Origin: Blastocystis sp. Blastoise
Taxonomy: Eukaryota > Sar > Bigyra > Opalinata > Blastocystidae
Direction: 5' to 3'
Length of the DNA stretch: 64,000 nt
Assembly (NCBI GenBank): GCA_039096225.1
Contig: JBBPEB010000022.1
Location: 1 to 64,000, forward strand
This document shows, piece by piece, positions 1-31,059 of the stretch. How positions within the stretch are numbered: position 1 is the stretch's first letter; every line of letters begins with the position of its first letter. The notes under the pieces are model-generated. The model made no database searches. It worked only from the letters and a program-made list of their open reading frames with translations, and was not told the DNA's origin. Made by a program: the position numbers and the translations under genes.

Positions 1-1921
1 ATGAGAATAGGCAAAAAAATTCCCATTGGTCAGTTTTTGGAAAAACCATTTGATTGGCTAATGTATACTATAGTTTGTCGCCGCAACTCCTCTAAACTTA
101 CGGGGAGTTAACTTTTGGCTGAAACACAGTTCAATACGATATAACGTGTAGTTGTGCACCGTATATTTGGTTAAGCGATATTATTAATAATTAAAAAGTT
201 ATTAATAAAAAAACAGAAAACATGATTTTTGAGTCGTTTTTGATTGGCTCTTTGGGATCATCCCGATAAAAATTGTTGACCAGACAATTGGAAAATAAAC
301 ATGGGGTAAACTTGATTTTTTCTCAATCCCACAATATACGTTATCCGTGTTTATTCTTTATATTTATCTACTTTTTAATACTTTTTCATATTGAACACGT
401 GAGGCCTTAACGGTCAAATTTAGATTCTTATTTTGACATGATATTCTGATTCAGGAGGTCGAAAAACCTAGGTGTACCAATTTTGAGCTCCTGAGGACGA
501 TTTTTGAGTGATCGATATTTTCTTTGATCTTCTTATAATCAACTAATATTGTAGTATTGTAATCAATAGGTCATCAAACTACTATATCTAAAACAAAGTC
601 TTAAAATAATGAGTTTTAGTGTCACAATTTTGAAAAGTGTGAATTAAGTGGTCTTAGAGTGAGAGATTCAATATAATGACTTTTATTTAGTAAACTAGAG
701 ATAATACTCTATTCTATGTTAAAAGGAAAGTCAAAATTATGAAGGTCAAAGTGTATGACCAAATGACAAAATGTGTCTTAAAAAGTAAAATGGTTTATAT
801 ATGTGTATAGAATCTTATATCAAGTCTATTCTATGAATAATAGCTTTAAATAAATAGTTTAAGGTTGTCAAATTTAAAAGAATGTGTAAAACATAGTCTT
901 AAACTGTGAATAAAAAATTTAGAGATATTAATTAGTATACAGCTGTAGTAGCTCTACAACATATCAAAAGTACAAAGAAAATAATTTTTAGAGAGTGGAT
1001 GTGTGAGGTGTTGTGACTATTATTTAAAATTTATTTTCACTTCAGTTTATATAAAATCGTGAATTTCGTGCATTGTAGAAAAATTGAGTCAAAATATCAA
1101 CTCTAAGGGTCTTAAATTTTGAAAAATGTAAAAATGAGTGACTTAGAGGACGAGATTCAAAATAAGAGCTTTTATTCATTAAACTAGAGTGTATGATCTA
1201 TATTATATTAAAAGAAGGGACGAAAATGTTTTGATCAAAGTGTATGAGCAAATGGTAAAGTGTCTTTAAAAGTGTTATGATGATGACAGTTGTGTATATA
1301 GGTTTAAATCAAGTCTACTCTTAAAATATTAGCTTTAAATAGCAAGTTAAAGGTTGTCTATTTGTCAAAATGTTTTAAAGACTGTCCTAAAATAAGAGAT
1401 TCAAGAAGTTGACTTTCATTTTATACATTATATGTCTATATAAACACTTTACTAAAAGAACTTTGGAAAATATTGTGGATGAGTGTTTTATCAAATGGTA
1501 AAGTTGTATCAAGAGTTGATTGTTTTCATTCCTTTTAGTATAAATCAATGTTTTGTGTCTACTCTTTAAAACTAACCATTTAACACTGAGTTTAAAGTTT
1601 TAAAGTCAACATGTGTGTTTGGTTTGTTTACTTTTAATTATTAAAATTGAGTTTAAATCAATAAAACAAGTTTAACACATGTATTTTGATTGATATAATC
1701 AGTTTTAAGATGACTTGGCTGTTTAAGTATAAATGGATTTGTTCTCATTGTGACTGTTGTTGAGAAGAGTAAGTCTAAAAAAACTATAAAAAGTTAGATA
1801 TATATATATATAAGGTCAAAATTGAAAAGTATAAATTAAACTGGATTAAAATAAATTTAAAAAAGAGAATATATATATATAATAATATATAAATAAAATA
1901 TTTAAAAAAAGAAAAATAAGA

Positions 1922-1988
1922 CTTCATGTCAGGAATTGAACCTGAAAACAATCTATAATGATTGCTTCTCTCCTTCCAGAGCATAAAG
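1922..1988 (-). ncRNA. tRNA-like cloverleaf, type I (Helitron A)
   Basis: Read on the minus strand it folds as a 7-bp closing stem (CTTTATG with CATGAAG), a CTCT/AGAG arm with a GG-containing loop, a long anticodon-like stem (CAATC/GATTG core) and a T-arm TCAGG-TTCAATT-CCTGA. The T-loop fits TTCRANY, and GGTTCAATTCC matches a Pol III B box. TGCTCTGGAAGG matches 11 of 12 positions of the A-box pattern TRGYNNANNNGG. T-rich runs that could terminate Pol III follow. The anticodon-like loop has only 6 nt, so this is tRNA-like and not an ordinary tRNA. Confidence 0.65.
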
Positions 1989-2014
1989 GGAGTTTAAAGA
2001 GTAATAATAATAAT

Positions 2015-2047
<33 letters not shown>

Positions 2048-2050
<3 letters not shown>

Positions 2051-2390
2051 GGAATGAAGGAAGTAGGAAGAATGTGGAAGTAGGAAGTAGGAAGAAAGAA
2101 GAAGGAAGGATGAAGGATGAAGGAAGAAGGAAGAAGTAGGAAGAAGGATGAAGGAAGAAGAAGGAAGAAGGAAGAAGTAGGATGAAGAAAGAAGGATGAG
2201 GAAGTAGGAAGAAGAAGGAAGAAGAAGGAAGAAGGAAGAATGACGGATGAGGAAGTAGGAAGTAGGAAGGAAGAATGAAGAATGAAGAATGAAGAATGAA
2301 GAATGAGGAAGAAGGTAGTAGGAAGGATAAGGAAGAAGTAAAATGAAGTAGAAAGAAGGAAGAAAGAAGAAAAAGGAACAAGAAGACTAT
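2048..2390 (+). repeat. Polypurine GGAAGAAGGAAGTA tract (Helitron A)
   Basis: Almost uninterrupted purines on the plus strand, built from GGAAGA, GGAAGTA and GAATGA units. The long open frames seen through it (Phe/Leu/Ser/Pro) are a consequence of the repeat. The same tract is present in all five copies (26951-27330 and 42001-42425 on plus, 19085-19455 and 37280-37885 as pyrimidines). On the antisense strand it is preceded by a TATATAG|GTTTAATAG acceptor-like junction, so it may lie in the last exon of the antisense unit. Such tracts can form triplex (H-DNA). Confidence 0.85.
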
Positions 2391-2427
2391 TAAACCTATA
2401 TACAATAGAAAAAATATAAAAAGATAA

Positions 2428-2434
2428 CATAAAA

Positions 2435-2465
<31 letters not shown>

Positions 2466-2669
2466 AATAAATAAATAAATATAATAAATATAATAAATAT
2501 AATAAATATAATAAATAAATAAAAAACATAAATAAATAAATAAATAAATAAATATAATAAATAAATAAATATAATAAATAAATAAATAAATATAATAAAT
2601 AAATATATATAAATATAATAAATATAATAAATAAATAAATAAATATAATAAATAAATAAATAAATATAA

Positions 2670-2700
<31 letters not shown>

Positions 2701-2752
2701 AAAACATAAATAATAAATAATAAAAATGAAAACAATAAATAAAATATAAATA
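2428..2752 (+). repeat. AAATA/TTTAT microsatellite tract (Helitron A)
   Basis: AAAT and AATA-type units interspersed with ATAAT. It lies in the presumed intron between antisense exon b and the polypyrimidine exon. Equivalent tracts occur at the same place in B, C, D and E. Confidence 0.85.
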
Positions 2753-2757
2753 TATAC

Positions 2758-3069
2758 CTAATAGAATAATCTGAAACCACAGACTAAGAAGAACGACATG
2801 AAAAAACGAAGACCACAACACATCAACAACATTTTCTTTCCTATAGAATAAAAATAATTAAAAACAATTTAATAGATGATATAAAAAGACAAAATAAATA
2901 ATATAGATAATAAAATTAAATAATAACAAAAAGTAATTAGTAAAAAATAAACAGATGTTAAGAAATAAATAATATATTTATATACCTGATAATAAGTAAC
3001 CCATTTCACACAACCAGGACCACTTTAAGAACCACTCACCACCACAACCAAGACAAATACAAGAGAATC
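2758..3069 (-). CDS. Antisense conserved exon pair of unknown product (Helitron A)
   Basis: Two exon-like blocks on the minus strand: exon a 3069-2986 (84 nt, TATAG before it and CAG|GTATA after it) and exon b 2840-2758 (CTATAG before, TAG|GTATAT after). The joined frame reads GFSCICLGCGGEWFLKWS at its start and stops in exon b. Exon a is 28 codons and stays open in A, D and E with the pattern CICLGC...FLKWS.LC, but has stops in B and C. A preceding exon-like stretch ends near 3171 at CTGG|GTATGT and has no ATG. The unit is transcribed away from the Rep/Hel gene and has the same polarity as the tRNA-like element. I do not recognise the peptide; the Cys spacing suggests metal binding at most. 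It could also be a spliced non-coding RNA. Confidence 0.4.
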
Positions 3070-3216
3070 CTATAAAAAAGTGTATTATTATAAATAAATA
3101 AATTAATATATACAAATAAATATAAAAATAATAACTAAATAACATCAAATTAATTAATAAAACATACCCAGACAATCAATACAAACAAATATTTAAAAAA
3201 TGTAAAAAACTATAGT

Positions 3217-3232
3217 TTTTGGGTACCCAAAA
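3217..3232. promoter_or_regulatory. TTTTGGGTACCCAAAA palindrome between divergent units
   Basis: A 16-bp perfect palindrome lies between the antisense exons and the first Rep/Hel ATG at 3427. It is conserved at 18311 (B), 28081 (C) and 43119 (E) and damaged in D (near 36550). Its place in the roughly 360-bp divergent gap fits a bidirectional promoter or a binding site for a dimeric protein. Function is inference. Confidence 0.5.
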
Positions 3233-3426
3233 TGTTTTTAATAAAAAATGTCCCTATTATCAGCTTAGCATAAGATAATAATAAAAATTCGAGGTTATTT
3301 ATGATTCCTATTAATTTTTAAATATGCATATTTTAAATATTGTCCCTATTTTACAAAAGTTCAAATATGAATATGTTTTTGTTTTCTACATAAAAATACT
3401 TATTTTATAATTAGTTATTAAATAAG

Positions 3427-6400
3427 ATGCCTAGAAAAGGCAGAATGTCATCAAGGCGGAGGTCCTTGAATCAAAAAAAATACGTTTCTCAAAGACGGTC
3501 CAGTATGTATTGTATTTATTTTTTTTTATTATTCATATATAGGTTCTTCTACTCAACAGGATGCAAGTATGGATGTCATTGATGGTGATGGTGCTTATCA
3601 ATATGGTCTTGAAGGTATATATTTATACATTTCTTTTTGTTTTATTATTTTATATTATCTTAGACTCTTCTCTGTCCTTGGTGTCCTTTACTGATGATGG
3701 TATAATGTTTTCAAGTGGTCTTGAAGGTATGTTGTCAATCATTTGTTTTTATTTTTATATTTTTATTTATCTATAGGTTCTTCTGTTGTTGTGGACTCTG
3801 TTGCTGGAGCTATTGATGATGATATACACTCCACTAATGGTCTTGAAGGTATGTTGTCAATCATTTATTTTATTTTTTTTTTTTATTTTTATTTATCTAT
3901 AGGTTCTTATACTCATGATGATGTTGTTGCTGATGCTACTGATGGTGATGCTAACTCTTCTCATGGTCTTCAAGGTATGTAATCATTTATTTATTTATTT
4001 ATTTTTAATTATTTCTTTTATTTCCTATTTATATGTTATTATAGGTTCTTCTGTTGCTATGAATGTTGGTGCTGATCTTAATCATAAAGAAGGTATATAT
4101 AATATATTTTCTTTTTCTTCTTTTTGATTTACTTTTATTTTATAAATATATATAGGTCCTTCTGTTCTGATAGTGTCTTCTGTTCATGGTACTGTATCTG
4201 ATGGTGATCATCCTTCTAATGCTAAAGGTATATAGATATATCATATATATATATTTTTTATTATTCTTTTAATTCTTTCTTATTTGTTTTTATATAGGTC
4301 CTTCAACTCAGTTAGTACATGGTCATTCTTCTATTCCTTCTTCAGAAGGTATATATATATATATATATATATATGTATCTATGTTTATTCTATTTTATGA
4401 TTCTATATAGGTGTGTCTTTTAATTTGGGATCGTGTGACTCTGTTGTTGGTCTTGATATAGTTACTACTAATATATATAAAGGTATATATATATATATAT
4501 AATATTATTTATTTATTTATACTTATACTATTGTATATATATATATAGGTGATGGTGTTAATAATTCTTCAGTCGTTGATGGTGTCAACAATTCTTCAAT
4601 TATTCAATGTATATTTATACTTATATTATATTCTATACTTATATAGGTTCAAATAAAGTTGTGGGTAAGTATTATTTATTATTTTAGTTTCTTTTTCTTT
4701 TGTTTTATTATTTTTTTTTCTTTCACAGATAATAGCTTTCTGTTGTCTGCTTTCTTTTTATTATCTATTTATATATTTATTTACTAAGCTTAGCTTTAGC
4801 TACTTAGTATTTAAATATTTAATAGAATCCTTTCTTTTTTCATTTTTGTTTTGTTATTTTTTTTTTTATTTTAATTTTACTTTAATCGTATCGATTAACG
4901 GGAAGGTGTCGGATATTAAGATAATTTTTGAATTACTTAATATTAAATAGTGTTGAGTATTTTAATATTTGTATTTAATTTAATTAATACAACTATTGAT
5001 TACCTATATGACTCATACTATTGCTGACTATTGTTCGCTTCTAACTCTATATAGTCTAACCGATGTAATACTATCAATGATGAGATATCTAAGTGTTAAG
5101 ATTCTTCACTTACTCACATTGTATATGATATTAACTGGTAGTTAGCTATATGTTTATAGAATGTTGTAACAAAGCACAATAGCTATAGATGTCCTCTATG
5201 AGGTTGAATCATATAGATTGTTTAATAAATTATACAATATTAATTACCTATACTTATTTAATATTAGTTTTCATTAATTATAATATTATCTTTCATTACA
5301 TTATAGTATTGAAGATAATTATTAATTAATAAAGTTTTTACTTTATATTATTTAATATATCATACTATATGTATGTATTATTATATTAATAAAGGTTATA
5401 TACTTTATATTAATAAATATATCATAGTATATCTATGTATTATTATATTAATAAAGGTTATATACTTTATATTAATAAATATATCATAGTATATCTATGT
5501 ATTATTATATTAATAAATGTTATACTTTATATTAATTAATATATCATAGTATATTCTATGTATTATTATATTAATAAAGGTTATATACTTTATATTAATA
5601 TATATAATATCATACTATACTTATGTATTATATTATATTAATAAAGGTTATACTTTATATTAATAAATATATCATAGTATATCTATGTATTATATTATAT
5701 TAATAAGAGTTATATACTTTATATTAATAAATATATCATACTATATCTATGACTTATATTATATTAATAAAGGTTATACTTTATATTAATTAATATATCA
5801 TACTATACTTATGTATCATATTATATTGATGAAGGTTATACTTTATATTAATTAATATATCATACTATACTTATGTATGTATTATTATATTAATAAATGT
5901 TATACTTTATATTAATATATATATTATCATACTATATCTATGTATTATATTATATTAATAAAGGTTATACTTTATATTAATTAATAAATACTTCAACAAC
6001 TATAACAATGAAAGTTAATTTATATACTACACAACTAAACTTTATTCTAAACTTAAACATAATATATTTAATATCTAATAATTAATATATATAGGTTCCA
6101 ATAAGGATAAAATAAATAATAATGATTTATCTAAATCATTTGGTTTTAACTCAAAACCTTTAGCTTTGTTTTCGACTTTTAATTTTCAAAATAATATTCC
6201 TTTACAAAACATTCAAAACAATAATTCAAATAACAATATTGATATTGATATCGATAATCGTTATTCACAAATAAATAATAATAATTCTATATTAAATAAT
6301 GGTTCAAACCTATTCAATCAAATGAATCCAGTTAATCAATCAATTAATAACATATCTATTGTTCAAAGTCAAATTAATAATAATAATCAATCTATTCCTA

Positions 6401-9400
6401 TATCAACTACTATTATACAACCTACAGAAAAAAATACTTCTGTTTCTAATAATAATAATGATTCTATTAATACTTCTTCACACTCTTTACCTGTTGTTAC
6501 TACTATTCCAACTGATGTAAATATATCTAACAATAATAATTCTACAATCATTAATGATAATACAAATAATTCAAGAAATAACACTAATACTAATAATAAT
6601 GAAACAATAATACATAGAAATAATAGATCTATTAATTCCATTATGAATAGTTATTTAACTATTCCTGATTTAAGTCCTATTCTTCCTCCTTTAAGTATTC
6701 TAACAAATATTCCTCATATTAATTTAAATAATGATAATGAATCAGAAATTATAACAACAATACCTAATAGTAGTAGTAGTAGTAGTTCAAGTGATAGTAG
6801 TAGTAGTAGTAGTAGTAGTTTTTCTGATAATGATTCTGATTCTGATTATATTGATCCTTTTCCTAATATTAATAGTAATACTCAAAATAATGACGAAATA
6901 CCAGTTGTAAGAACTATTAGAAGACCTATAACAGATAATAGTATGTTTTTTATTATTTAAATATATTTATTTAATACTTTTTTATAGTTGAAGAAGATAT
7001 AATTATTCATCCTATTATTAATAGAGGAAGAAGAAGAGCTTTAGATATTTGTATGCTATTTATTTTTTATAATTCTTTATGAATAATTAAATAACAAATT
7101 ATTTTTATAGATAATCAACAAAGATTATTATATCCTGGATTACATAATTGTATTGCTTCTATTCAAAGAAGTATTTATATATATTTAATATTTATTTTAT
7201 ATTATTTTATATAGATTCTCATGGTGATTTCGTATTAAATGAAGCATTGAATACTTATAAAGCTAATTATTTAGGTGATTTTAATGTTCATTGTGAATAT
7301 TGTCATGCTAAACATTTTGAATTAGAGAAAGGAATGAATGATAAGTTTTATACTTGCTGTGGTAGTGGTAAAGTAGTTCTTCCTGAGCTTCCTGATCTTC
7401 CTAATACTATTCGTTCTTTATTACAAAGAGATAATCCAGATTCAAGAGAATTTATTAATAATATTATTCGATATAATAATTCTGTTGCTTTAGCTTCTTT
7501 AGCTGGAAATAATACTTCTGATGATGATTTAAGAAATTCTTCTGGACCTTTACTATTTAAATGTGGAGGTAATATATATCATACTTTTAAGAGTGCTTTA
7601 GATTTTGATGTGAATGATCCTACAAGACATCCTGTATTCAATCAATATTATATGATAGATGGAGATGAAGCTACTCATATGAGAAGTATGAATCGATATT
7701 TTTGTGATTTAAAACCAAATATTTTAGAGATATTAGATAGTACAATAAGAGAATATCATCCATTAGCTCAAATATATAATTCACTTCGAGAAAGAGTAGA
7801 TGAAGTATTAGAAGAGAATAGTCAAATGAATAGAAATAATATTAATTTATTAATAGAGTTTAAGAAACAAAGAAGAGAAGTACCTGATATAAGAAGATAT
7901 AATACTCCTCAAGTAGATGAAGTAGCAGTAATATATCAATATAGAGAAGGAGGAGTAATGCCAGAAAGAAGTTATTGTTGTTTTCCTAGAAGTGGTATGG
8001 AAATAGTAGCTACTAATAGTAATAATGAACAGAATCGTTATACTTCAGGTCAATATATAGTAATGAAGAATACTAATTCTTATATAGATTGTATGGTTTA
8101 TCCAGTTATGTTTCCAACTGGAAGACAAGGTTGGTATCCAGATTTATTATCATTGAATCGTTCTAATCAAATTACTATTACTATGTTAGAATATTATAAT
8201 TATATGCTTCAAATGAAAGATCCACCTTATGATAATTATTTATTAAAATATAAGAAATTAACTTTACAATATATTACTGATAATTATATTCGAGTAGAAC
8301 AAAATAGAATTAATTATATACGAAATAATCAAAATAAGTTAAGAGCTTCAACTTATCAGAATATAAATAATATGTTAGAAGAGAGAGGAGATCAAATAAA
8401 TGAGAATGATAGAAATATAGATAGAATAGGTAAAGCTATTATATTACCTTCTTCTTTTGTTGGTAGTCCAAGAAATTTGCAACAGAAATATATGGATGCT
8501 ATGAGTGTAGTTCGAGAATATGGTAAACCTGATTTATTTATAACATTTACTTGCAATCCAGATTGGTTAGAAATAAAGAATAATATTCCAGAAGGTTATA
8601 CTGTTAATGAATTTCCAGATTTAGTTTCAAGAGTGTTTCATTTAAAGTTGAAACAATTACTTTCTGATATAAAGGATAAGAATATATTTGGTACTGTAGA
8701 AGCTTTATTATATTCAGTGGAATTCCAAAAGAGAGGTTTACCACATTCTCATATATTAATTATTTTAGATACGAATTCTAAATATAGAACAGAAGATGAA
8801 GTAGATAGTATAATAAGTGCAGAGATTCCTGATAAAGAATCAACTCCTCTTCTTTATGAATTAGTTAAGAAACATATGATTCATGGTCCATGTGGTCCTG
8901 ATTATGATACGAATTGTGTTTGTATTGATAGATCAACAGGTAAATGTAGTAAGAGATTTCCAAAAGAATATATAGAGCAAACTAATTGTCATTTAAATTC
9001 TTATCCTTTATATCAAAGAAGAAATATTCCTGATAGAACTATTACTCTTATTCGTAGTCATAATACTTATACTATTGATAATCGTTGGGTAGTTCCTTAT
9101 AATCCTTATTTATTATTGAAATATCAAGCTCATATTAATGTAGAAGTCTGTTGTAATATTCAAAGTACAAAATATATATATAAGTATGCATTAAAAGGAA
9201 ATGATTCTGTGATAGCTCAATTAAGAAGAGTGAATGATAATGGAATAGTAGATGAAACTCAAGCTTATTTAGATTGTCGATATGTTTCTCCTCCTGAAGC
9301 TTCTTATCGTTTGAATTGTTTTGAAATTACTTATAATTCTGTTTCTATTAATAGATTACCTATTCATTTACCTGATGATCCATATATATTATTTCGAGAA

Positions 9401-11827
9401 GGACATGAAGTAGAAGCATTAAGGAATAGTTTAGAGAAAGGTACTAAATTAACAAAATACTTTGATTTAGAGAAAGAAGTTCAGAATCAAAGAAAGATAT
9501 ATACTTATTATTATATAGAGAAGAAGCATGGTATTCGTAATATGAATAATGTAGAAGAAGAAAGAGAATTGATTCAAGTTCGTTTAGAAGAGATAAATAG
9601 AATAAATAGTTATGAAGTAGATGATGATAATATATCCGAAGAATTATTGAAAATATTAGATGAGAAATATCCTATTTATGCTTATCATGAAATACCAAAA
9701 TATTATGTATGGAAATCGAATACAAATACTTGGAATAGACGTCAGAGAGATATAAAAGCTTTAGGAAGAATGTATTATGTGAATCCAAAAGATAAGGAAC
9801 GATATGCTTTGAGATTATTATTATTGAATACGAAAGGAGCTGATAGCTTTGATTCTTTGAAGATAGTAAAAGGATTGAATAGTAATGAACCTTATAGAAC
9901 CTTTAGTGAAGCAGCTATAGCAAGAGGATTATTGAATAATGAGAGAGAAGTATTTGATTCATTTTCAGAAGCTATTGTTTTTGCTACTCCATGTCAATTG
10001 AGACAATTATTTATTACTTATATTTCAGAATCATTATTAACAAATGTGAAAGAGTTTTGGATTCGATTTAAATCATTTCTTAGTGAGGATTATAAACATT
10101 CAATGCATAATAATGAAATAGATTATATAAATACTCCTTTAGCTCAAGATTTAGATTCATCAAGTGTTATAGAAGATGATACTAATAGTGTTCTTCAAGA
10201 TTATGAAATACGTACTTTACAAGATATAAAAGAGATGATGATAAGTATAGGAGTGAATTATAATGATTTAGGATTACCTCAAGTAGAAGAACAACATCAT
10301 TATAATGATTATAATTATAATCCTACATTAGAATTACAAGAAGCTAATAGAGTAATAGAATTATTAAATGAAGAACAAAGAAATGCATTTGATAGAGTAA
10401 TTCATTCAATAGAAAGTAGTAGAATAGAAGATAAGTTATGTTTCTTTATAGATGGTCCAGGTGGAAGTGGAAAGACTTTCTTATATAATAGTTTATTAAG
10501 TTATTTACGTGGACATAATAAGAATGTATTACCTGTAGCTTCAACAGGAATTGCTTCTACTTTATTACCAGGTGGTAGAACAGCTCATAAACAATTTGGT
10601 ATTCCTTTGAATGTTGATCCTGATTCTACTTCAAATATAGATTTAGCTAGAGATAGAAGAAAAGTAGAAGAAATAAGAATAGCTGATTTAATAATATGGG
10701 ATGAAGCTCCTATGATGAAAGGTGATTGTTTTATGGTAGTACATAGATTATTATGTGATATAATGAATACAGAATTAGATATTCCTTTTGGTGGTAAAAC
10801 AGTAGTATTAGGAGGAGATTTCAGACAATGTTTACCAGTTATAAGAAAAGGAACTCAAGCTCAGATTGTTAGTTCTTCTATAAAGTTTTGTTCCTTATGG
10901 AATTCTATCAAAAATAATGTCATTCATTTATCAAGAAATATGAGAGCTTTAGAAGGAGCAGATGATTTTAGACAATGGTTATTACAAGTAGGAGATGGTG
11001 TTCTTTCTAATAATTATACTATTAGTCATCATTTAGATATAGATTATATTCCTATTCCTCCTCAATGTATTGTGAATGATGATTTATGTGTTACTGTATT
11101 TGGACATCGAATCAATACTTCTCTTGATTCTGATATCAAACGATTAGCTTCTTCTGTTATATTAGCTTCTACTAATGATTGTGTTGGTACTTTAAATGAT
11201 TTCATTGTTGATAATCTTCTTTCTGGAACTACTACTCCTTATATCTCTTCTGATTCTATTCTTGATTCTGAAACAGATGATCCAGAATCAAATTATCCTA
11301 TCGAGTTTATCAATTCTCAAACACCTTCTGGAATGCCTCCTCATATATTAAATTTAAAAATAGGTTGTATCATTATGCTTTTAAGAAATCTTAATCCTTC
11401 TAAAGGATTATGTAATGGTACTAGACTTATAGTAACTCGATTAGGATCAAATAATATTACTGCTACTATTTTAAATCCTCCTCCTTCTCTTACTATTGAT
11501 GAACAAACTGTTATTATTCCAAGAATCATCTGTAATTCAAATCCTGAAGATCTTCCTATTATTATATCCAGAAGACAATTTCCTATTCGTTTAGCCTTTG
11601 CCATGACTATCAACAAATCTCAAGGACAAACATTTGAAAGAGTTGGTGTTTACTTAGATCGTCCTGTCTTCTCTCATGGTCAACTCTATGTTGCTTTCAG
11701 TCGTGCTCGATCTTTCAACGCTCTTTTTATTAAGGTAGTTGATAGTGTCTCTCAAGGTAAGATGATTAGTAGTAGTAATGAAATATTTACTAAGAACGTG
11801 GTCTTCAGGTCTACTCTAAATAATTAA
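3427..11827 (+). CDS. Helitron Rep/helicase transposase, 15 exons, about 2085 aa
   Basis: Encodes the replication-initiator and PIF1-type helicase that drives rolling-circle transposition. Inferred exons: 3427-3502, 3543-3614, 3664-3726, 3777-3848, 3903-3974, 4045-4092, 4156-4227, 4298-4348, 4411-4482, 4549-4608, 4647-4664, 6095-6940, 6988-7050, 7111-7170, 7215-11827. Every intron is phase 1 and every internal exon is a multiple of 3, so the frame stays open throughout. Residues 1-225 are a basic start (MPRKGRMSSRRRS) followed by short acidic Ser/Gly/Asp units, most opening with GSS or GPS. Residues 226-507 are Asn/Ser-rich low complexity. The Rep domain shows PHSH (HUH histidines near 1059 and 1061) and KYIYKYALKG (tyrosines 1202 and 1206). 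The helicase shows Walker A GPGGSGKT (1629-1636), Walker B IIWDEAP (D1711, E1712), GGDFRQCLPVI and INKSQGQTF. No frameshift or stop is seen, so the gene may be active. The domain calls are secure; the N-terminal microexons are inference supported by frame continuity. Confidence 0.9.
5340..5985 (+). repeat. About 62-bp AT-rich minisatellite in Rep/Hel intron 11
   Basis: A unit containing 'ttaataaaggttatac' and 'atatcatagtatatctatg' repeats roughly ten times with small length changes. It lies within the 1.43-kb intron between exons 11 and 12, by far the longest intron of the gene. The first part of that intron (about 4700-4960) is homologous to the sequence just after the exon series in B-E. 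Confidence 0.8.
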
Positions 11828-12017
11828 ATGCTTTATTTTTTCTTTTTTCTTCTTTTGTTATATTTGTTTGTTTTTGTTTTATGTTTGTTAATTATTTTTT
11901 CTTTTTAATCTATTACTTCTTCACTTTTTATTTGTTTTTTAAATGTTTATAATAAACAAGGTTGTTTTGTTCAATAAAGTTAAAGAAATAATTTTAAAAC
12001 CCAACTGCACAACGCAG

Positions 12018-12063
12018 CCGCGGCGCGTCGCCGTTAGGCGGTGCGCCAGCGGCGTTACCCTAG
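12018..12063 (+). other. Helitron A 3'-terminal hairpin and CTAG end
   Basis: CCGC-GGCGCGTCGCC-GTTA-GGCGGTGCGCC-A-GCGG folds into an 11-bp stem with a GTTA loop plus an outer 4-bp stem. CTAG follows after 7 bases. This is the Helitron transposition terminator. B-E have the same loop and outer stem but different paired bases in the inner stem. Confidence 0.92.
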
Positions 12064-14962: not shown

Positions 14963-15008
14963 CTAGGGTCACGCCGCAGGTCCGGGGCCTAACGGCACCG
15001 GACCGCGG
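14963..15008 (-). other. Helitron B 3'-terminal hairpin and CTAG end
   Basis: On the minus strand: CCGC-GGTCCGGTGCC-GTTA-GGCCCCGGACC-T-GCGG, then CTAG. The inner stem has one T/C mismatch. The same sequence ends copies C, D and E. Confidence 0.9.
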
Positions 15009-15191
15009 CTGCAATGAATAATAAGTGTTTGGTTTTTATACAATTTCTTTCCTTATTATCTATAATATATTATATATTATATATTATATATTATATATTA
15101 TATAATATGTATTATTTATTAAATATTATCTATTAGATGTTACTTATTATATATAATATATTATATATATTATACATTATTTTAATAAAAC

Positions 15192-15261
15192 TTCTTATAC
15201 TCTATATGGAGAGTAACAATCATTTATTGATTGTTATCAGGTTCAATTCCTGATATAAGAA
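15192..15261 (+). ncRNA. tRNA-like cloverleaf, type II (Helitron B)
   Basis: An 8-bp closing stem TTCTTATA/TATAAGAA, arm CTCT-ATATGG-AGAG, anticodon-like arm CAATC-ATTTATT-GATTG and T-arm TCAGG-TTCAATT-CCTGA. Read as a 7-nt loop, the base before the triplet is U and the anticodon is UUA, which would pair with UAA. The stem can extend to 8 bp with a 5-nt loop, so the anticodon reading is uncertain. TACTCTATATGG fits the A-box pattern at 11 of 12 positions and the B box is intact. No T-run lies immediately downstream. Confidence 0.6.
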
Positions 15262-16756
15262 TTAAATAGATTATTTAAATAATATCTGAAAAACTAAAAA
15301 CAAAAAAAAATATATAAATTCTTGTTTGATTCATTATATTTGTTATTTATTTTTTTTTAAATATATTTTGTATTTATAAATAGTTTAGTTACTTTTTTAA
15401 TCATTATGGAATTTCTAAAGCTAATAAATCTCGAAATGGGTCACAATGTGAAGTATTGAAAAATATTTTTATTTTATTAAATTAATTTAAATAGATTAGA
15501 ATAAAGTAGTTTAAACTATTTTTAACCATTTCATAAAACTAAAACAAATTTAACACAACAATATCAACATTTATTTTCACATTAACGACTTAAACACATA
15601 GTTTTAGAATTAATATTAATGAAATCAATCTAAATAGAATTTTTATACATAACAGTATCAACAATATCGCTTTTAGAGAGACTTTACCATTTCGATATCC
15701 ACTGTATCAAAATCGTTTTAGACATAACTTTCACACAGTATAGATCTCATTGTATTATTTATTAATTATAGTTTAATGTCTTGAATCTCTGACCTCATGA
15801 CGCTTTTTAATACATTTTGAAAAATTGACACACTTATAGTTAATTTAAAACTCTAATATTTAAACACTATACTCAACATAACTCTATCAATACATTAGTT
15901 ACCATTTTAACACTCTTTATAAACATTTTACATTTGGTCATACACTTTTTCAAGAGTATTTTTGTCACTTCTTTTAATATAATTTAGACTATAGTTCATA
16001 GTTTGATAAATAAAATGTTTTATATTGAATCTCGTCCGTTGAGTAACTTATTTCTACATTTAAAAAAATAAACCCCTTTAAACTTGTTTTTAAAAGTCAA
16101 AATTTTCATAGTATAATAAAAACACAATTTTAAACAAAGAAGCTAACTCTTTAAAATTTCTAGACAACTCAAACACATTGTTAATTAACTTTTCAAAAAT
16201 GAAATTCTCTTAATTTTTAATATGTTGTAGAATTTAGCTTAGTGTATATTAAATCATTTTTTAGAATTTCGAATCTCTTAGTTTAAGAACCCCTTTTTAC
16301 AATTTTTTAAATTTTACAACCTTAAACTTACTTTTATGACTTTATATTTACACAATAATATATATATGCAAGATGAATTAGTGGAGAAAAACAAAACTTA
16401 AATATCTCAATCATTGACAGTATTAAATCAGTTATACTATATAAAGTTAAAAGTGGACAATAGATATTTTAAATTAAATTGAATCCAAACATTTAAAAAC
16501 TTGACACTATTTAATATATTAAGTAATTGAAGAATTATCTTAATAGTCGACACAATTTAAATAAAAAAAAAAAAAAAGAAAAAGAACAAAACAAAAATAG
16601 AACAAAAGAAAACATTTAAATATAGAATAGCTAAAACGATAACAACAGCATAAATAAATAAATAATATAAAGAAAGCAGATAATAGAAAGCTATTAAATG
16701 TGAAAAATAATAATAATAATAAGCAAAAGAAAAAGAAAAAGAACTAAAAAAAAAAA

Positions 16757-18119
16757 ATCTAAACATAACCATAACACTAAGAGAACCTATATAGATAAAA
16801 GATATATATATATATAATAAGAGATAGTATAATAAATATATCTAACATATATATATATACCTTCAGTATTAAAAACTATTCACACCATCACTATATAGAT
16901 ATAAGATATAGATATATTAAAAGAAATATTATAAATATTTGTTATATATATATATATATATATATACCTTTAGATACATTTTTATTATTAAAATGAAAGC
17001 TAACATTAGGGTGATAAGATCCCCTATTAGAAAAGACACCTATATATAATATAATAAATGATAAAATATATATAAACAATAAATATATATATATACCTTC
17101 TAAAGAAGGAACAGAGGAAACACCATGATATCTTAACTGACTTGAAGAACCTATATATAATGAAAAGATAATTAATAAATCAAAAAAAAAAGAAAGGAAG
17201 AAATAAGAATATACCTGTATCATTATTACCATTAATCCAAGACTCCATAAGAAAAGAACGACCTATATAAGATAAAAATAATAATAAACTAAATTAAATT
17301 TAAAAAGTAGACATACCTTCATCATTAATACGTTCAGCAACTACAACCACAACAGTAGAATAACCTATAAAGAAACAGTAATAGACAAATAATAAATAAA
17401 AAAAAATAATAATAAATGAATGACAATATATATATACCTTTAATATCATATGAGCAGTCTACCTGATCACCAACAACATCCATAGCAACATTTACATCAA
17501 TAAAACAAACCTATATATATAAAAGTAAAAAAAGAAAAATAAATGAATGACAACATACCTTCAACACCACACAGACATCTATTATCAACATCACTGTTAA
17601 CATGTACAACAACTGAAGAACCTATATATATAGAAATAATAAAAAAATAATAATAAAATATAAAAAAAAAAAAATAAATGATTGGTAACATACCATCTAT
17701 AAAGCAAGAAGAACCTACATCAACACCGATATCACTATTGGAATCACTTACAATAACAGAAGAACCTATATATAAAGAAAAGTTAAAAAAATAAAAACAA
17801 ATCATTGACAACATACCTTCACAGTTAGCATAACAGGCAACACCACCACCTCTGTATGATACAAATAACATAGAACAACCTAAAATAATATAATAAATAA
17901 TTAATAAAAAAAGAAATGGAAAATATATACCTTTAAGACCATCAGAGCAAGTACCACCAAGACTAAGAACATACATAACTGGATTCTATTGAGTAGAAGA
18001 ACCTAAATATGAATACTAATAACAAATAGATACAATATACCTGATTTTCTTTGAAATATAAATTATTTTTTATTTCCAGACCTCCACCTTGAAGCAATTT
18101 TGTTGTTCTTAGACATCAT
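16757..18119 (-). pseudogene. Broken Rep/Hel 5' exon series (Helitron B)
   Basis: Homologous to exons 1-11 of the autonomous gene in copy A: ATG at 18119, then short exons bounded by TATAG|GTTCTTCT and AAG|GTATGT. Exon 1 has a stop (GNKK-stop) and exon 2 reads SSTQ-stop-NPV with TAG at the codon that is CAG in copy A. The series ends at GGTTCTCTTAGTG (16787) with no downstream Rep exons. All introns seen in C are retained. Confidence 0.75.
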
Positions 18120-18891
18120 AATTAATAATTTAATATATAAATGAGTATTAGATTATGTATTTAACAATCCTATTTCATTTGAATTAATAAATATAATAGG
18201 GTCTATTTTTAAAATATGCTTCTTAAAACATAATAGAAATCAAAAATAGCCTTAATTTTTCATTGATTTTATTACAAAAGTAATAATTGGGTCATTCTGG
18301 TTTAAAATCATTTTGGGTACCCAAAAAACATAGTTCTTTACTCTTTTTTAAATATTTTATTGTATTGATTGACTTAGTGTGTTTTATTTATTTATTTAAA
18401 GTTATTTAACTTAGTATTATATTTATCTATTTATATACTAATTTATTTATTTAAAATAATACACTTCTTTATAGGATTCTCTTGTATTTGCCTTGGTTGT
18501 CATGGTTAGTGGTTCTTGAAGTGGTCCTGGTTAAATGAAATGGTTTATTTAGTGTCAGGTATATAAATATATATATTTTTTATAATATTTCATTTTTAAT
18601 TCATTTGTTTCTTTAATTGTTTCTTTTTTTATTATCTTTTTGGTTTATATTTTCTTTATATATAATTAATCAATAGATTATTAGTTATTTTTATTCTATA
18701 GGGAAGAAAATGTAACTGATGTGTGTGTTATACTCTTCGTTTTTTCATGTCTTTCTTTTAAATCTGTGGTTTCAGGTTGATTTATATGTATATATTTATA
18801 TTTTATTTATTATTTTTGTTATTTATTGTTTCTTTATTTATTTATATTTTATTTATTAAATTTATTTTATTTATTTATTTATTTATTTATT

Positions 18892-18934
<43 letters not shown>

Positions 18935-19084
18935 TTATATTTATTATATTTATATGTTTATTTATTTATTATTATTTATTTATTTTATATGTTTATTTAT
19001 TTATTTTTAATATTTATTTATGTATTTATTAATTATTTATATTATCTTTTTTATATGTTTTCTATTTTATATAGGTTTAAAATC

Positions 19085-19455
19085 TTCTTATTCTTTTTTT
19101 CTTCTTTCTTCTTCCTTCTTACTTCTTTCTCATTCTTTCTACTTCCTATTTCCTTCTTCATTCCTTCTTCCTTCTTCCTATTTCCTTCTCCATTCATGCT
19201 TCCTTCTTCCTATTTCATTCTTCATTCATGCTTCCTACTTCCTACTTCCTACTTCCTTCTTCCTTCTTCCTCATCTTTGATTCTTCTTACTTACTTCTTC
19301 TTCATTCTGGATTCTTCCTTCTTCCTCATCCTTCCTTATTCTTACTTCTTCTTACTTCCTTCTTTCTCATCCTTCTTCCTCATCCTTCCTTATTCTTACT
19401 TCTTCTTCCTAATCCTTCCTACTTCCTTCTTCCTCATCCTTCCACTTCATTTCCT
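19085..19455 (+). repeat. Polypyrimidine tract (Helitron B)
   Basis: TTCTTCCTTCTTCCTCATCC-type units, the reverse complement of the purine tract in A, C and E. It is preceded by the TTTA tract (about 18800-19030) and an ATATAG|GTTTAAAATC junction. Open frames in it are artefacts. Confidence 0.85.
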
Positions 19456-19512
19456 TCTTATTATATATATATAAATATATATATTTGATTATTATTATTA
19501 TTTATAAACTCC

Positions 19513-19578
19513 TTTTATGCTCTAGAAGGAGAGAAACAATCATATAGATTGTTTTCAGGTTCAATTCCTGACATAAAG
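19513..19578 (+). ncRNA. tRNA-like cloverleaf, type I (Helitron B)
   Basis: Closing stem TTTTATG/CATAAAG, CTCT/AGAG arm, AAACAATC-ATATA-GATTGTTT arm and T-arm TCAGG-TTCAATT-CCTGA. A box TGCTCTAGAAGG and B box GGTTCAATTCC are present. A run of seven T follows shortly (TTATTTTTTTATTTTTT), a good Pol III terminator. Confidence 0.65.
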
Positions 19579-19611
19579 TGTTATTTTTTTATTTTTTAAT
19601 ATTTTATTCAC

Positions 19612-19668
<57 letters not shown>

Positions 19669-21547
19669 TCTTTTTTAAATTTATTTTAAACCATTTTAAT
19701 TTATACTTTTCAATTTTGATCTTAAACATATATATCTAACTTTTTATAGCTTTTTTAGACTTCCTCTTCTTAACAACAGTCACAATGAGAACAAATCTAT
19801 TTATACTCAAACAAATAAATTATCTCTAAACTGTTTGAATCAATCAATATAGACGTGTCTGACATAATTTATCAATTTAAACTCAATTTTAATAATTAAA
19901 AGTAAACAAACCAAACACACATGTCGACTTTAAAACGTTAAACTCAGTATTAATAATTTATTTTTATAGAGTAAACACGAAACATTGATTTATACAAAAA
20001 GGAATGGAAACAATCAACTCTTGATACAACTTTACCATTTGGCAAAACACTCATCCACAATATTTTCTAAAGTACTTTTCATAAAGTGTTTATATACACA
20101 TGCTATCTATAAAATGAAAGTCAACTTCTTGAATCTCTTTGTTTAAGACACTACTTAATACATTTTGACAAATAGACAACCTTTAACTTATTATATAAAG
20201 CTAATATTTTAAAATTAAACTTGATTTAGACCTATGAACACATTAGTCAACACTTTAGACTTTTTAAAGACACTTTACCATTTGGTCATACACTTTGATC
20301 AAAATATTTTTGTCCCTCCTTTTAATATAATATAGGTTATACACTCTAGTTTAATGACTAAAAGCTCTTATTTTGAATCTCGTCCTCTAAGTCACTCATT
20401 TTTACATTTTCTAAAAATTAAGACCCTTAGAGTTGATTTTTTAAGTTAATTTTTCTACAGTGTTCCAAAAACACGATTTTGCTCAAACTGAAGTAAAAAT
20501 AAATTTTAAATAATAGTCACAACACCTCACACATCCATTCTTTAAAAATTATTTTAACTGTACTTTTGATATGTTGTAGAGCTACTATAGCTGTACACTA
20601 ATTAATATCTCTAAATTTTTTATTCATAGTTTAAGACTATGTTTTACACATTCTTTTAAATTTGACAACCTTAAACTATTTATTTAAAGCTCTTATTCAT
20701 AAAATAGACTTGATACATGATTCTAAACACATATATAAACCCTTTTACTTTTTAAGACACATTTTGTCATTTGGTCATACACTTTGACCTTCATAATTTT
20801 GACTCTCCTTTTAATATAGAATAGAGTTATAAGTCTAATTTACTAAATAAAAGTCATAATATTGAATCTCTCACTCTAAGACCACTTAATTCACATTTTT
20901 CAAAATTGTCACTTTTAAACTCGTTATTTTAAAACTCTGTTTTAACTATAGTAGTTTGATGACCTATTGATTACTATGCTACAATATTAGTCCATTATAA
21001 GAAGATCGAAGAAAAATATCGATCACTCAAAAATCGTCCTCAGGAGCTCAAAATCGCTACACCTAGGTTTTTGGACCTCCTGAATCAGAATATCATGTCA
21101 AATTGAGAATCTAAATTTGACCGTTAAGGCCTCACGTGTTCAATATGAAAAAGTATTAAAAAATAGATAAATATAAAGAATAAACACGGATAACGTATAT
21201 TGTGGGATTGAGAAAAAATCAAGTTTACCCCATGTTTATTTTTCAATTGTCTGGTCAACAATTTTTATCGGGGTCACCCCAAAGAGCCAATCAAAAACGA
21301 CTCAAAAATCATGTTTTCTGTTTTTTTATTAATAACTTTTTAATTATAAACAATATCGCTTATCCAAATATACGGTGCAAAACTACACGTTATATCGTAT
21401 TGAACTGTGTTTCAACCAAAAGTTAACTCCCCGTAAGTTTAGAGGAGTTGCGGCGACAAACTATAGTATACATTAGCCAATCAAATGGTTTTTCTAAAAA
21501 CTGACCAATGGGAATTTTTTTGCCTATTTGCTTTATAATAGTAATGA

Positions 21548-24850: not shown

Positions 24851-26719
24851 TCATTACTATATATATGAGAATAGGCAAAAAAATTCCCATTGGTCAGTTT
24901 TTGGAAAAACCATTTGATTGGCTAATGTATACTATAGTTTGTCGCCGCAACTCCTCTAAACTTACGGGGAGTTAACTTTTCGTTGAAACACAGTTCAATA
25001 GGATATAACATGTAGTTGTGCACCGTATATTTGGTTAAGCGATATTATTTATAATTAAAAAGTTATTAATAAAAGAACAGAAAACATGATTTTTGAGTCG
25101 TTTTTGATTGGCTCTTTGGGATCATCCCGATAAAAATTGTTGACCAGACAATTGAAAAATAAACATGGGGTAAACTTGATTTTTTATCAATCCCACAATA
25201 TACGTTATCCGTGTTTATTCTTTATATTTATCTATTTTTTAATACTTTTTCATATTGAACACGTGAGGCCTTAACGGTCAAATTTAGATTCTTATTTTGA
25301 CATGATATTCTGATTCAGGAGGTCAAAAAACCTAGGTGTAGCGATTTTGAGCTCCTGAGGACGATTTTTGAGTGATCGATATTTTCTTCGATCTTCTTAT
25401 AATTGACTAATATTGTATCATAGTAATCAATAGGTCCTCAAACTACTATAGTTAAAACAAAGTCTTAAAATAATGAGTTTGAGTGTCACAATTTTGAAAA
25501 ATGTGAATTAAGTGGTCTTAGAGTGAGAGATTCAATATAATGACTTTTATTTAGTAAACTAGACTTATAACTCTATACTATGTTAAAAGGAGAGTCAAAA
25601 TTATGATGGTCAAAGTGTATGACCAAATGACAAAATGTGTCTTAAAAAGTAAAAGGGTTTCTATATATGTTTAGAATCATGTATTAAGTCTATTTTATGA
25701 ATAAGAGCTTTAAATAAATAGTTTAAGGTTGTCAAATTTAAATAAATGTGTAAAACATAGTCTTAAACTTTGAATAAAAAATTTAGAGATATTAATTAGT
25801 GTGCAGCTATAGTAGCTCTACAACATATCAAAAGTACAAAGAAAATAATTTTTAAAGAGTTGATGTGTGAAGGGTTGTGACTATTATTTAAAATTTATTT
25901 TTACTTCAGTTTATACAAAATCGTGAATTTCGTGCACTGTAAAAAAACTGAGCCAAAAAGTCAACTCTAAGGGTCTTAATTTTTAGAAAATGTAAAAATG
26001 AGTGACTTAGAGGACGAGATTCAAAATAAGAGCTTTTAGTCATTAAACTAGAGTGTATGACCTATATTATATTAAAAGAAGGGACAAAAATATTTTGATC
26101 AAAGTGTATTAGCAAATGGTAAAGTGTCTTTAAAAGTGTTATGATGATGACAGTTGTGTTTAAGTAGTTAAATCAAGTTTACTCTTAAAATATCAGCTTT
26201 AAATAGCAAGTTAAAGGTTGTTAATTTGTCAAAATGTTTTAAACACTGTCTTAAACAAAGAGATTCAAGAAGTTGACTTTCATTTTATACATAATATGTG
26301 TATATAAACACTTTACTAAAAGAACTTTGGAAAATATTGTGGATGAGTGTTTTGTCAAATGGTAAAGTTGTGTCAAGAGTTAATTATTTTAATTCATTTT
26401 TGTTTAAATCAATGTTTTATGTCCACTCTATAAAAACTATCTTTTAATACTGAGTTTAACGTTTTAAAGTCGACATGTGTGTTTGGTTTGTTTACTTTTA
26501 ATTATTAAAATTGAGTTTAAATTGATAAATTATGTCAGACACGTCTATATTGATTGATTCAAACAGTTTAGAGATAATTTATTTGTTTGAGTATAAATAG
26601 ATTTGTTCTCATTGTGACTGTTGTTGAGAAGAGGAAGTCTAAAAAAACTATAAAAAGTTAGATATATATATATAAGGTCAAAATTGAAAAGTATAAATTA
26701 AACTGGATTAAAATAAATT

Positions 26720-26727
26720 AAAAAAAG

Positions 26728-26800
<73 letters not shown>
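26720..26800. repeat. (AT)n microsatellite (Helitron C)
   Basis: An almost pure AT dinucleotide run beside the tRNA-like element. It corresponds to 19618-19665 in B and is much shorter in A, D and E. Confidence 0.9.
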
Positions 26801-26804
<4 letters not shown>

Positions 26805-26837
26805 GTGAATAAAATATTAAAAAATAAAAAAATAACA

Positions 26838-26903
26838 CTTTATGTCAGGAATTGAACCTGAAAACAATCTATATGATTGTTTCTCTCCTTCTAGAGCATA
26901 AAA
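26838..26903 (-). ncRNA. tRNA-like cloverleaf, type I (Helitron C)
   Basis: Identical in plan to the B copy: closing stem TTTTATG/CATAAAG, T-arm with TTCAATT loop, A and B boxes, then a T7 run on the minus strand. Confidence 0.65.
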
Positions 26904-26950
26904 GGAGTTTATAAATAATAATAATAATCAAATATATATATATATATATA

Positions 26951-27330
26951 TATAATAAGAAGGAAATGAAGTGGAAGGATGAGGAAGAAGGAAGTAGGAA
27001 GGATTAGGAAGAAGAAGTAAGAATAAGGAAGGATGAGGAAGAAGGATGAGAAAGAAGGAAGTAAGAAGAAGTAAGAATAAGGAAGGATGAGGAAGAAGGA
27101 AGAATCCAGAATGAAGAAGAAGTAAGTAAGAAGAATCAAAGATGAGGAAGAAGGAAGAAGGAAGTAGGAAGTAGGAAGCATGAATGAAGAATGAAATAGG
27201 AAGAAGGAAGCATGAATGGAGAAGGAAATAGGAAGAAGGAAGAAGGAATGAAGAAGGAAATAGGAAGTAGAAAGAATGAGAAAGAAGTAAGAAGGAAGAA
27301 GAAAGAAGAAAAAAAAAGAATAAGAAGATT
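26951..27330 (+). repeat. Polypurine tract (Helitron C)
   Basis: GGAAGAAGGAAGTAGGAAGG-type repeats, followed by the AAATA tract at about 27375-27620. Same position and polarity as in A and E. Confidence 0.85.
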
Positions 27331-27476
27331 TTAAACCTATATAAAATAGAAAACATATAAAAAAGATAATATAAATAATTAATAAATACATAAATAAATA
27401 TTAAAAATAAATAAATAAACATATAAAATAAATAAATAATAATAAATAAATAAACATATAAATATAATAAATATAA

Positions 27477-27515
<39 letters not shown>

Positions 27516-28287
27516 AATAAATAAATAAATAAATAAATAAAATAAATTTAATAAATAAAATATAAATAAATAAAGAAACAATAAATAACAAAAATAATAA
27601 ATAAAATATAAATATATACATATAAATCAACCTGAAACCACAGATTTAAAAGAAAGACATGAAAAAACGAAGAGTATAACACACACATCAGTTACATTTT
27701 CTTCCCTATAGAATAAAAATAACTAATAATCTATTGATTAATTATATATAAAGAAAATATAAACCAAAAAGATAATAAAAAAAGAAACAATTAAAGAAAC
27801 AAATGAATTAAAAATGAAATATTATAAAAAATATATATATTTATATACCTGACACTAAATAAACCATTTCATTTAACCAGGACCACTTCAAGAACCACTA
27901 ACCATGACAACCAAGGCAAATACAAGAGAATCCTATAAAGAAGTGTATTATTTTAAATAAATAAATTAGTATATAAATAGATAAATATAATACTAAGTTA
28001 AATAACTTTAAATAAATAAATAAAACACACTAAGTCAATCAATACAATAAAATATTTAAAAAAGAGTAAAGAACTATGTTTTTTGGGTACCCAAAATGAT
28101 TTTAAACCAGAATGACCCAATTATTACTTTTGTAATAAAATCAATGAAAAATTAAGGCTATTTTTGATTTCTATTATGTTTTAAGAAGCATATTTTAAAA
28201 ATAGACCCTATTATATTTATTAATTCAAATGAAATAGGATTGTTAAATACATAATCTAATACTCATTTATATATTAAATTATTAATT

Positions 28288-29610: not shown

Positions 29611-31059
29611 CTTTTGCTTATTATTATTATTATTTTTCACATTTAATAGCTTTCTATTATCTGCTTTCTTTATATTATTTATTTATTTATGCTGTTGTTA
29701 TCGTTTTAGCTATTCTATATTTAAATGTTTTCTTTTGCTATTTTTGTTTTGTTCTTTTTCTTTTTTTTTTATTTAAATTGTGTCGACTATTAAGATAATT
29801 CTTGAAATACTTAGTATGTTAAATAGTGTCAAGTTTTTAAATATTTGAATTAAATTTTAAAACATTTATTGTCACTTTTAACACTGTATAGTATTACTGA
29901 TTTAAAACTGTCAATAATTGAGATATTTAAGTTTTGAGTTTCTCTGTTTACTCGCATTTATATTTACATAATTTTGTGAACGTATTAACTCATAAAAGTA
30001 ACTTTAAGGTTGTAAAATAAAAAATATTATCTTAAAATAGGAGATTCGAAATTCTAATAGAAGTTTAATATATAATAAGCTAAATTCTACAACATATTAA
30101 AAAATAAGAGAATTTCATTTTTGAAAAGTGAATTAACAATGTGTTTGAGTTGTCTAGAAATTTTAAAGAGTTAGTATATTCTTTTAAAATTGTGTTTTCA
30201 TTAGACTATGAAAATTTTGACTTTTAAAAACAAGTTTAAAGGGATTAATATTTTTAAATGTAGAAATGAATTATCCAAAGGATGAGATTCAATATAAAAT
30301 ATTTTATTTATCAAACTATGAATTATATTCTAAATTATATCAAAAGAAAGGACAAAAATACACTTGACAAAGTGTATGACCAAATGTAAAATGTTTATAA
30401 AGAGTGTCAAAATGGTGACTCTTATGTTGATAGAGTTATGATGAGTATAATGTTATAATATTAGCTTTTAAAATTAATTATAAGTGTGTCAACCTTTCAA
30501 AATGTGTTAAAAATGATCTTGAAGTCAGAGATTCAAGACATTAAACTTGAATTAATAAATAAAATAATGAGATCTATACTATGTGAAAGTTATGTCTAAA
30601 ACTATTTTGATACACTTGATATCGAAATGGTAAAGTCTCTCTAAAAGTAATATTGTTGACACTTTTGTGTTTAGAAATGCTATTTAGATTGAATTTATTA
30701 ATATTAATTCAAAAACTTTGTGTTTAAGTTGTTAAAGTCAAAATGAATGTTGACTTTGTTGTGTTAGATTTGTTTTAGTTTTATGAAATGATTAAAATAA
30801 GTTTATGCTATTTTATTATAATCTATTTAAAATGATTTTACAACATAAAAATATTTTTCAATACTTAACATTATGACCCATTTCTAAATTTATTAGCTTT
30901 AGAAACTCCATAATAATTAAAGCAGTAACTCAACTATTTATAAATACAAAATATATTTTTAAAATAATAAATAACAAATATAATGATTCAAAAAGGATTT
31001 CTTATTTTCTTCAAGTATTGTTTTTAGTTTTTCAGATACTATTCAAATAATCTATTTAG

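Follow-up and report, generated by a model that had tools for sequence, protein, structure and literature searches.

Five Helitron copies at the start of the contig

The window, the first 64,000 nucleotides of contig JBBPEB010000022.1 (C11) in the 33.3-Mb, 34-contig genome of Blastocystis sp. Blastoise, has a GC content of 23% and contains five Helitron copies, A to E, of which A is autonomous and B to E are relatives of ~6.3-6.6 kb without RepHel. Helitron A (1..12063, + strand), whose 5' terminal bases are missing at the contig start, ends in a 3' GC-rich hairpin and CTAG/T, the slash marking the junction. Its main open frame (7148..11827, + strand) encodes RepHel, with Pfam matches to Helitron_like_N (2.2e-56) and PIF1 helicase (2.1e-64), and aligns with WA158_002607 of the same organism at 100% identity along 99% of the query. 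Helitron B (14963..21547, - strand) has the ends TCATTAC...CTAG. Both ends of Helitron C (24852..31345, + strand) were set by an empty site in locus L034, giving the junctions GTTA/TCATTAC...GTGACCCTAG/TTTTTTATAAATT and no target duplication; C is flanked by A and T, and the empty copy has A-C at that point. Helitron D (33391..39956, - strand) is inserted into the 5' terminus of Helitron E (39957..46238, + strand), the first 13 bases of which (TCATTACTATATA) lie severed at 33378-33390. The ends TCATTAC...GC-rich inverted repeat...CTAG occur in B, C, D and E; in A the 3' end is present and the 5' end lies off the contig. By its RepHel (HUH Rep and PIF1), A is a Helitron, and B to E are assigned to the Helitrons by their common ends and sequence.

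The genome holds at least 22 RepHel loci of this family (family 1), 19 of them (nearly) full length with 99-100% identity, so that the family must have been active recently; two copies have one in-frame TGA. A second family (family 2), with ~43% identity to the first, is present at eight loci.

A (GAAATA)n array lies between Helitrons C and D (32290-32519), and 55398-56900 (- strand) is probably a host gene, with a CAF1A dimerization domain. Beyond the window, contigs C10, C13, C14, C29 and C33 hold long reverse-transcriptase frames, several of them ~8.5 kb apart in tandem; their distance to tRNA genes, all of one class, is a few kb, and they may be tRNA-targeted non-LTR retrotransposon arrays. 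Contigs C9 and C12 carry matching tRNA sets in opposite orientation, perhaps an organelle genome assembled twice.

Antisense cloverleafs in the window

An earlier note on this DNA had described a 66-67-nt cloverleaf in all five Helitrons, always antisense to the element, and this description was confirmed by folding and by a covariance model. In Helitron A this cloverleaf (type I; 1922..1988, - strand, 67 nt) consists of a 7-bp acceptor stem, a D arm, an 8-bp anticodon-like stem and a T arm with TTCAATT; its minimum free energy (MFE) fold is exactly the cloverleaf, at -20.4 kcal/mol, with none of 200 shuffles as good, and it matches the model at 95.9 bits, this copy being in the training set. 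Model match and fold likewise identified type I in B (19513..19578, + strand, the element being on -; 66 nt), C (26838..26903, - strand; 66 nt), D (37949..38015, + strand, the element being on -; 67 nt) and E (41880..41946, - strand; 67 nt).

A diverged 68-nt cloverleaf, type II, lies 4.1-4.4 kb from type I in four of the five Helitrons, A being without it. Model match and fold support the copies in B (15193..15260, + strand), C (31061..31128, - strand) and E (45955..46022, - strand); the copy in D (33559..33626, + strand) matches the model and, with the outer acceptor pairs broken, has no acceptor stem in its MFE fold. Type I is situated ~1.9 kb from the Helitron 5' end and type II ~0.2 kb from the 3' end, both antisense to the direction of RepHel. 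A 17-nt T-arm pattern (up to 3 mismatches) gave nine matches in the window as compared with 0.12 in shuffles. For one type II copy the model gave a second, much weaker match on the opposite strand (33.2 versus 96.1 bits).

In all five window copies a pyrimidine-rich tract (0.88-0.95 C+T per 200 nt) is found 0.3-1.1 kb upstream of type I; that of Helitron A (2052..2390, - strand), upstream in the tRNA sense, reaches 0.92 C+T per 200 nt. Among the further types described below, such a tract also lies upstream of the cloverleaf at all three type IV loci tested and at the single type VII locus, and was not found at types II, III, V and VIII. Internal repeats of ~490 nt (518-1454 in the window, and elsewhere) occur 0.53-0.58 kb downstream of both type I and type II, so that the two cloverleafs are parts of related modules. 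By eye, the stretch 3540-4660 of Helitron A contains short exon-like units, repeated and bordered by GTATAT...TATAG; such units are present in L014 and L015 beside type VIII cloverleafs, there in the same sense as the cloverleafs.

Spread through the genome and other repeat families

A search with the 15-nt T-arm core CAGGTTCAATTCCTG produced 253 matches in the genome (106 + 147), and the reversed control none. Exact type I made up 40 of the 100 places listed out of these 253; 17 of the 40 had a same-strand partner other than type I at 3.9-4.5 kb on the expected side, as against one with the partner on the wrong side and one with it on the other strand. An exact type I lay antisense, 4.7-7.8 kb upstream, in 10 of the 19 full-length family-1 RepHel copies, and was missing from the other nine.

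Further types were traced from looser T-arm matches in the genome, and at least four repeat families besides the Helitrons carry related cloverleafs, two of them with host telomere repeats at the end. Type III, from L016, has three copies at ~100% (including the query) among the matches listed; type IV is found at L017-L022 and also at L034; types V and VII lie 4.0 kb apart within one element on C10; in type VIII, where two cloverleafs lie ~200 nt apart, (AT)n replaces the anticodon arm; and type IX, from L058, has three copies at ~100%, the query among them, as well as four at 79%. An 801-nt type III query gave three full-length matches, the remaining 38, among the matches listed, being short and around the cloverleaf; its similarity to the Helitrons was, among the matches listed (40 candidates scored), confined to the surroundings of the cloverleaf.

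The C10 element and the type VIII elements have their last ~255 nt in common and end, in the sense of the cloverleaf, in a T-run and then CCCTAACCCTAA. The terminal CCCTAA repeats of types V/VII and VIII match the host telomere (TTAGGG), and this sequence match suggests that these elements may be added at chromosome ends. No RVT_1 match was found in the telomere-ended loci examined, where intron-split exons could escape detection. The similarity that BLAST found between Helitron type II and types V, VII and VIII extends past the cloverleaf, with ~70% identity across as much as 673 nt, and by eye consists mostly of AT repeat; given this similarity and the common terminal ~255 nt, the different families are to be understood as largely, not wholly, dissimilar.

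Repeats that have a T-run and then CCCTAACCCTAA as their end were also seen at internal chromosome sites, in the cloverleaf sense at L013 5700, L015 2356/5750 and L031 5638, and at C10:93600-107500; in L015, two such ends follow in succession. Several of these repeats lie near contig ends, oriented as if attached at former chromosome ends. A 5S rRNA gene is situated at L014 57-175, near a type VIII element.

The earlier note had presented the cloverleaf as a feature of Helitrons, which is right for every copy in the window and does not hold generally: besides its presence in the other repeat families, the motif is absent from the stretch examined of a single family-2 Helitron locus (C4:1521000-1533600), in which the 5' end was not located, and we therefore rejected the idea of a trait of all Helitrons. 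Type II also occurs in other arrangements. At L033 6831-9993, a 3.16-kb Helitron with type II only directly follows the 3' end of another Helitron, and type II places at C4:1506842/1510007 and 1536271/1539434/1542615 are ~3.16-3.18 kb apart, a spacing like that of a tandem array.

The fold is conserved by compensatory change

Covariation was evaluated on two alignments. The first (A4), aligned with MAFFT and no structure fitting, comprises 19 rows chosen by the authors, with type VIII and near-duplicates left out; the second (A2) is structure-fitted and has 29 distinct rows, including two poor matches. The earlier note had made the cloverleaf depend on compensatory changes across copies, and these were found: in A4, 96.4% of cells were paired and 12 of the 22 pairs had changed on both sides, with a covariation of 0.398 as compared with 0.147 ± 0.016 in shuffles (none of 500 as high) and 0.045-0.103 in slid versions. 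In A2, two-sided change affected 18 of 22 pairs, and covariation was 0.550 versus 0.168 in shuffles. The shuffles leave the relatedness among rows in place. For the Helitron copies alone (10 distinct rows), 4 of 22 pairs were two-sided and covariation was 0.216 versus 0.144, mostly due to the split between types I and II; one of five covariation measures, that of further pair types, here fell below the shuffles (9 versus 10.9).

RNAalifold recovered the cloverleaf from A4 unaided, and extended the anticodon stem by two pairs to 8 bp, closing the junction. These two pairs are kept in 17 and 14 of the 19 rows, with two-sided changes in 5 and 4, respectively. Single-sequence folds were weak for types III, VII and IX (z -1.68, -1.44 and -1.49), for which the support is comparative. 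A chance fold was rejected on the shuffles together with the covariation.

Conservation of the cloverleaf exceeded that of either flank in 19 of 20 pairwise comparisons, which were author-chosen and non-independent, with flanks that are partly simple AT repeats and, in L020, a Helitron inserted upstream; the exception was type II in C versus D (90% versus 93% and 91%). The pairing cells include 16 G-U and 4 A-C, plus 18 other mismatches, and this greater tolerance of G-U than of A-C points to an RNA of one strand. The motif is a constrained cloverleaf of defined anatomy with a favoured strand.

These data bear on two further explanations. The cloverleaf might act in the DNA, serving transposition as a site bound by protein or as a single-strand hairpin, or else as an insulator or as an insertion target for other elements. 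Rolling-circle transposition does pass through single-stranded DNA, and in two cases an element has inserted directly at a cloverleaf or near it: in L033, what is apparently a family-2 Helitron adjoins the 5' edge of type II, and in L020 a family-1 Helitron lies ~60 nt away from type IV. We consider a DNA-level role distinctly unlikely, however, in view of the G-U excess, of the location within the Helitron (1.9 kb from its 5' end for type I, ~0.2 kb from its 3' end for type II), and of the occurrence of the motif in repeats whose Helitron status is not established.

Helitrons capture host sequence, and a host tRNA might have been taken up passively, without any function. A possible precedent is an Arabidopsis tRNA-Cys gene cluster that overlaps Helitron annotations (PMC10701932); that cluster, however, consists of genuine tRNA genes, mostly with an expression signal, and its placement in Helitrons is putative. 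The Blastocystis motif is, by comparison, a degenerate mimic that forms a conserved part of Helitrons with defined ends and is common to other repeat families. Passive capture appears very improbable, given the compensatory changes in all four arms, the conservation above the flanks and the presence of the motif in several other repeat families; moreover, none of the 17 host tRNAs examined (16 from the genome plus the tRNA-Leu of the window) has the shape of the cloverleaf.

Comparison with tRNA genes

According to the earlier note the cloverleaf was of Pol III type, with a TTCAATT T-loop, A-box-like and B-box sequences and a T-run after it. For the counts of boxes and T-runs and for the upstream A-run check given below, two of 37 model matches (one antisense, one poor partial) were dropped, and the box test used 12 of the 17 host tRNA sequences. 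The T-loop and the B-box stood: TTCRANT is present in all 27 distinct tRNA-likes (TTCAA in 26) and the B-box pattern in 26 of them, as compared with 9 of 12 host tRNAs, most copies having been found with the help of this T-arm motif. The A-box had to be given up, since its consensus TRGYNNAR occurs in 0 of 27 tRNA-likes and in 11 of 12 host tRNAs. All 27 have GG in the D-loop, and in 24 the acceptor and D stems adjoin directly, with 0 nt between them.

The T-run was partly upheld. A run of four or more T within 15 nt after the cloverleaf was found in 23 of 35 rows as compared with 10.4 expected, and follows type I in all seven rows, whereas the five type II rows from the window and L033 lack T4 within 60 nt. 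Four type IV rows (L017, L019, L020 and L034) have their nearest T4 at 54 nt, and the type II relatives L024, L025, L057, L061, L063 and L066 have a T-run close by. All 17 host tRNAs have T4 within 14 nt.

At its standard setting ARAGORN called none of the nine window copies and, in 20 further loci, one type VIII copy (L015 2731-2817, as 'tRNA-???'); relaxed settings called five (-mt) and eight (-ps20) of the nine. The 'anticodon' reported by relaxed ARAGORN differs with the setting and the type, and a decoding or suppressor tRNA was rejected. The Rfam tRNA model RF00005 did not match any cloverleaf up to E 10. Nor was there any Rfam match above the cut-off for the cloverleafs, those up to E 10 being at chance level, namely Plastid-ycf2 (E 3.2), which overlaps two type II copies on the opposite strand, and miRNA models, which fall on the (AT)n in type VIII. 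The known Rfam families were rejected, the MIR matches at ~39890-40010 representing the head-to-head palindrome of D and E.

The main alternative to the interpretation given below is that the motif is a Pol III gene, with a tRNA-derived internal promoter from which Pol III would make a short RNA or transcribe the element. The B-box and the T-runs, constant after type I and, beyond the window, present after certain type II relatives, agree with it; the B-box doubles as the T-arm and so does not discriminate between a Pol III gene and an RNA mimic. On the other side are the missing A-box, the type II and type IV rows without a near T-run, which differ in this from every host tRNA, and the failure of the tRNA model and of standard ARAGORN. 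On balance we regard a Pol III gene as rather unlikely. tRNA-derived SINEs are dispersed repeats with a tRNA-type B-box; the Blastocystis motif differs from them in lacking an A-box, in residing inside kilobase DNA transposons and in its covarying fold.

A candidate tRNA mimic for RNA processing

RNase P and RNase Z cleave mascRNA and menRNA, the tRNA-like 3' ends of the long noncoding RNAs MALAT1 and NEAT1 (MENbeta), and the crystal-structure description of mascRNA and menRNA gives a linker-free junction, a long anticodon stem, GG in the D-loop and a UUCAA T-loop (PMC11693755). In the terms of that description, the architecture of the Blastocystis cloverleaf is the one reported for mascRNA and menRNA and not that of a tRNA gene. 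A 7-bp acceptor adjoins a T arm with a UUCAA loop, their 0-nt spacing implying that they would stack, and the consensus has the D-loop GG, a long (8-bp) anticodon stem and no unpaired junction base; the junction-closing pairs fail, however, in 2 and 5 of the 19 rows, as compared with the linker-free junction described for mascRNA. The Blastocystis motif also differs in its larger D and anticodon arms and in its setting, since it belongs to mobile elements of a stramenopile, with 253 core matches and two per element in some, and is antisense to the transposase.

MALAT1 has a stabilising U-rich/A-rich triple-helix element upstream of mascRNA. This triple helix is named in PMC12941219. An A-rich tract of the MALAT1 type is absent from the 27 distinct Blastocystis upstream sequences, the longest A run within 100 nt upstream being 5. 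Rfam includes a mascRNA-menRNA family, which did not match the Blastocystis cloverleafs up to E 10. Plant-virus tRNA-like structures, too, are RNA mimics without parts of the canonical tRNA core; they are situated at the 3' termini of viral RNAs, whereas the Blastocystis motifs are internal to DNA elements and antisense to them. Judged by titles and the beginnings of abstracts, the open-licence PMC papers listed for Helitrons with tRNA-like or Pol III elements, for Blastocystis, and for tRNA-like structures with RNase P/Z and transposons describe no tRNA mimic of Helitrons.

The interpretation that we favour, and hold to be almost evenly poised, is that the cloverleaf is a tRNA mimic at the RNA level, a predicted processing signal for RNase P and RNase Z that would set the ends of antisense noncoding transcripts. 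The antisense strand of the Helitron would be transcribed into a noncoding RNA carrying the cloverleaf, the host RNase P and RNase Z would recognise it as a tRNA and cut the transcript there, and the cut would define the ends of the antisense transcript, presumably with some benefit to the element. Several observations speak against such a mimic: the broken outer acceptor stem of type II in Helitron D, the presence of an exact type I in only 10 of 19 family-1 RepHel copies, the missing A-rich tract and mascRNA-type Rfam match, the excess of T-runs, which a Pol III gene would lead one to expect, the lack of the pyrimidine tract at types II, III, V and VIII, the rows in which the junction-closing pairs fail, the covariation measure that falls below the shuffles in Helitrons alone, and the weak match on the opposite strand of a type II copy.

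An RNA mimic could also serve another use, such as aminoacylation, translation control or, in the telomere-ended elements, recruitment of a reverse transcriptase or telomerase, for which the CCCTAA ends of types V/VII and VIII in the cloverleaf sense might be cited. We find this quite improbable, because the 'anticodon' loops vary, with (AT)n replacing that arm in type VIII, because Helitrons are not known to have a reverse transcriptase, and because the telomere-ended loci examined gave no RVT_1 match, apart from intron-split exons that could be missed.

Extending the processing mimic from single elements to the whole set, we suggest, more cautiously still, that there may be a class of selfish, linker-free mimics in the style of MALAT1, residing in Helitrons, telomere-ended elements and other repeats, whose transcripts RNase P and RNase Z would finish, with one or two mimics per element as punctuation. 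If this is true, 3'-end formation by tRNA mimics arose outside vertebrate long noncoding RNAs too, as a mobile module, and mobile DNA is able to carry this route; mimics of the same structure on numerous transposons in so distant a eukaryote would suggest that it was invented more than once. Helitrons would gain a noncoding antisense product, and the Blastocystis motifs would constitute a natural set of sequence-diverse mimics from which the requirements of RNase P and RNase Z may be learned.
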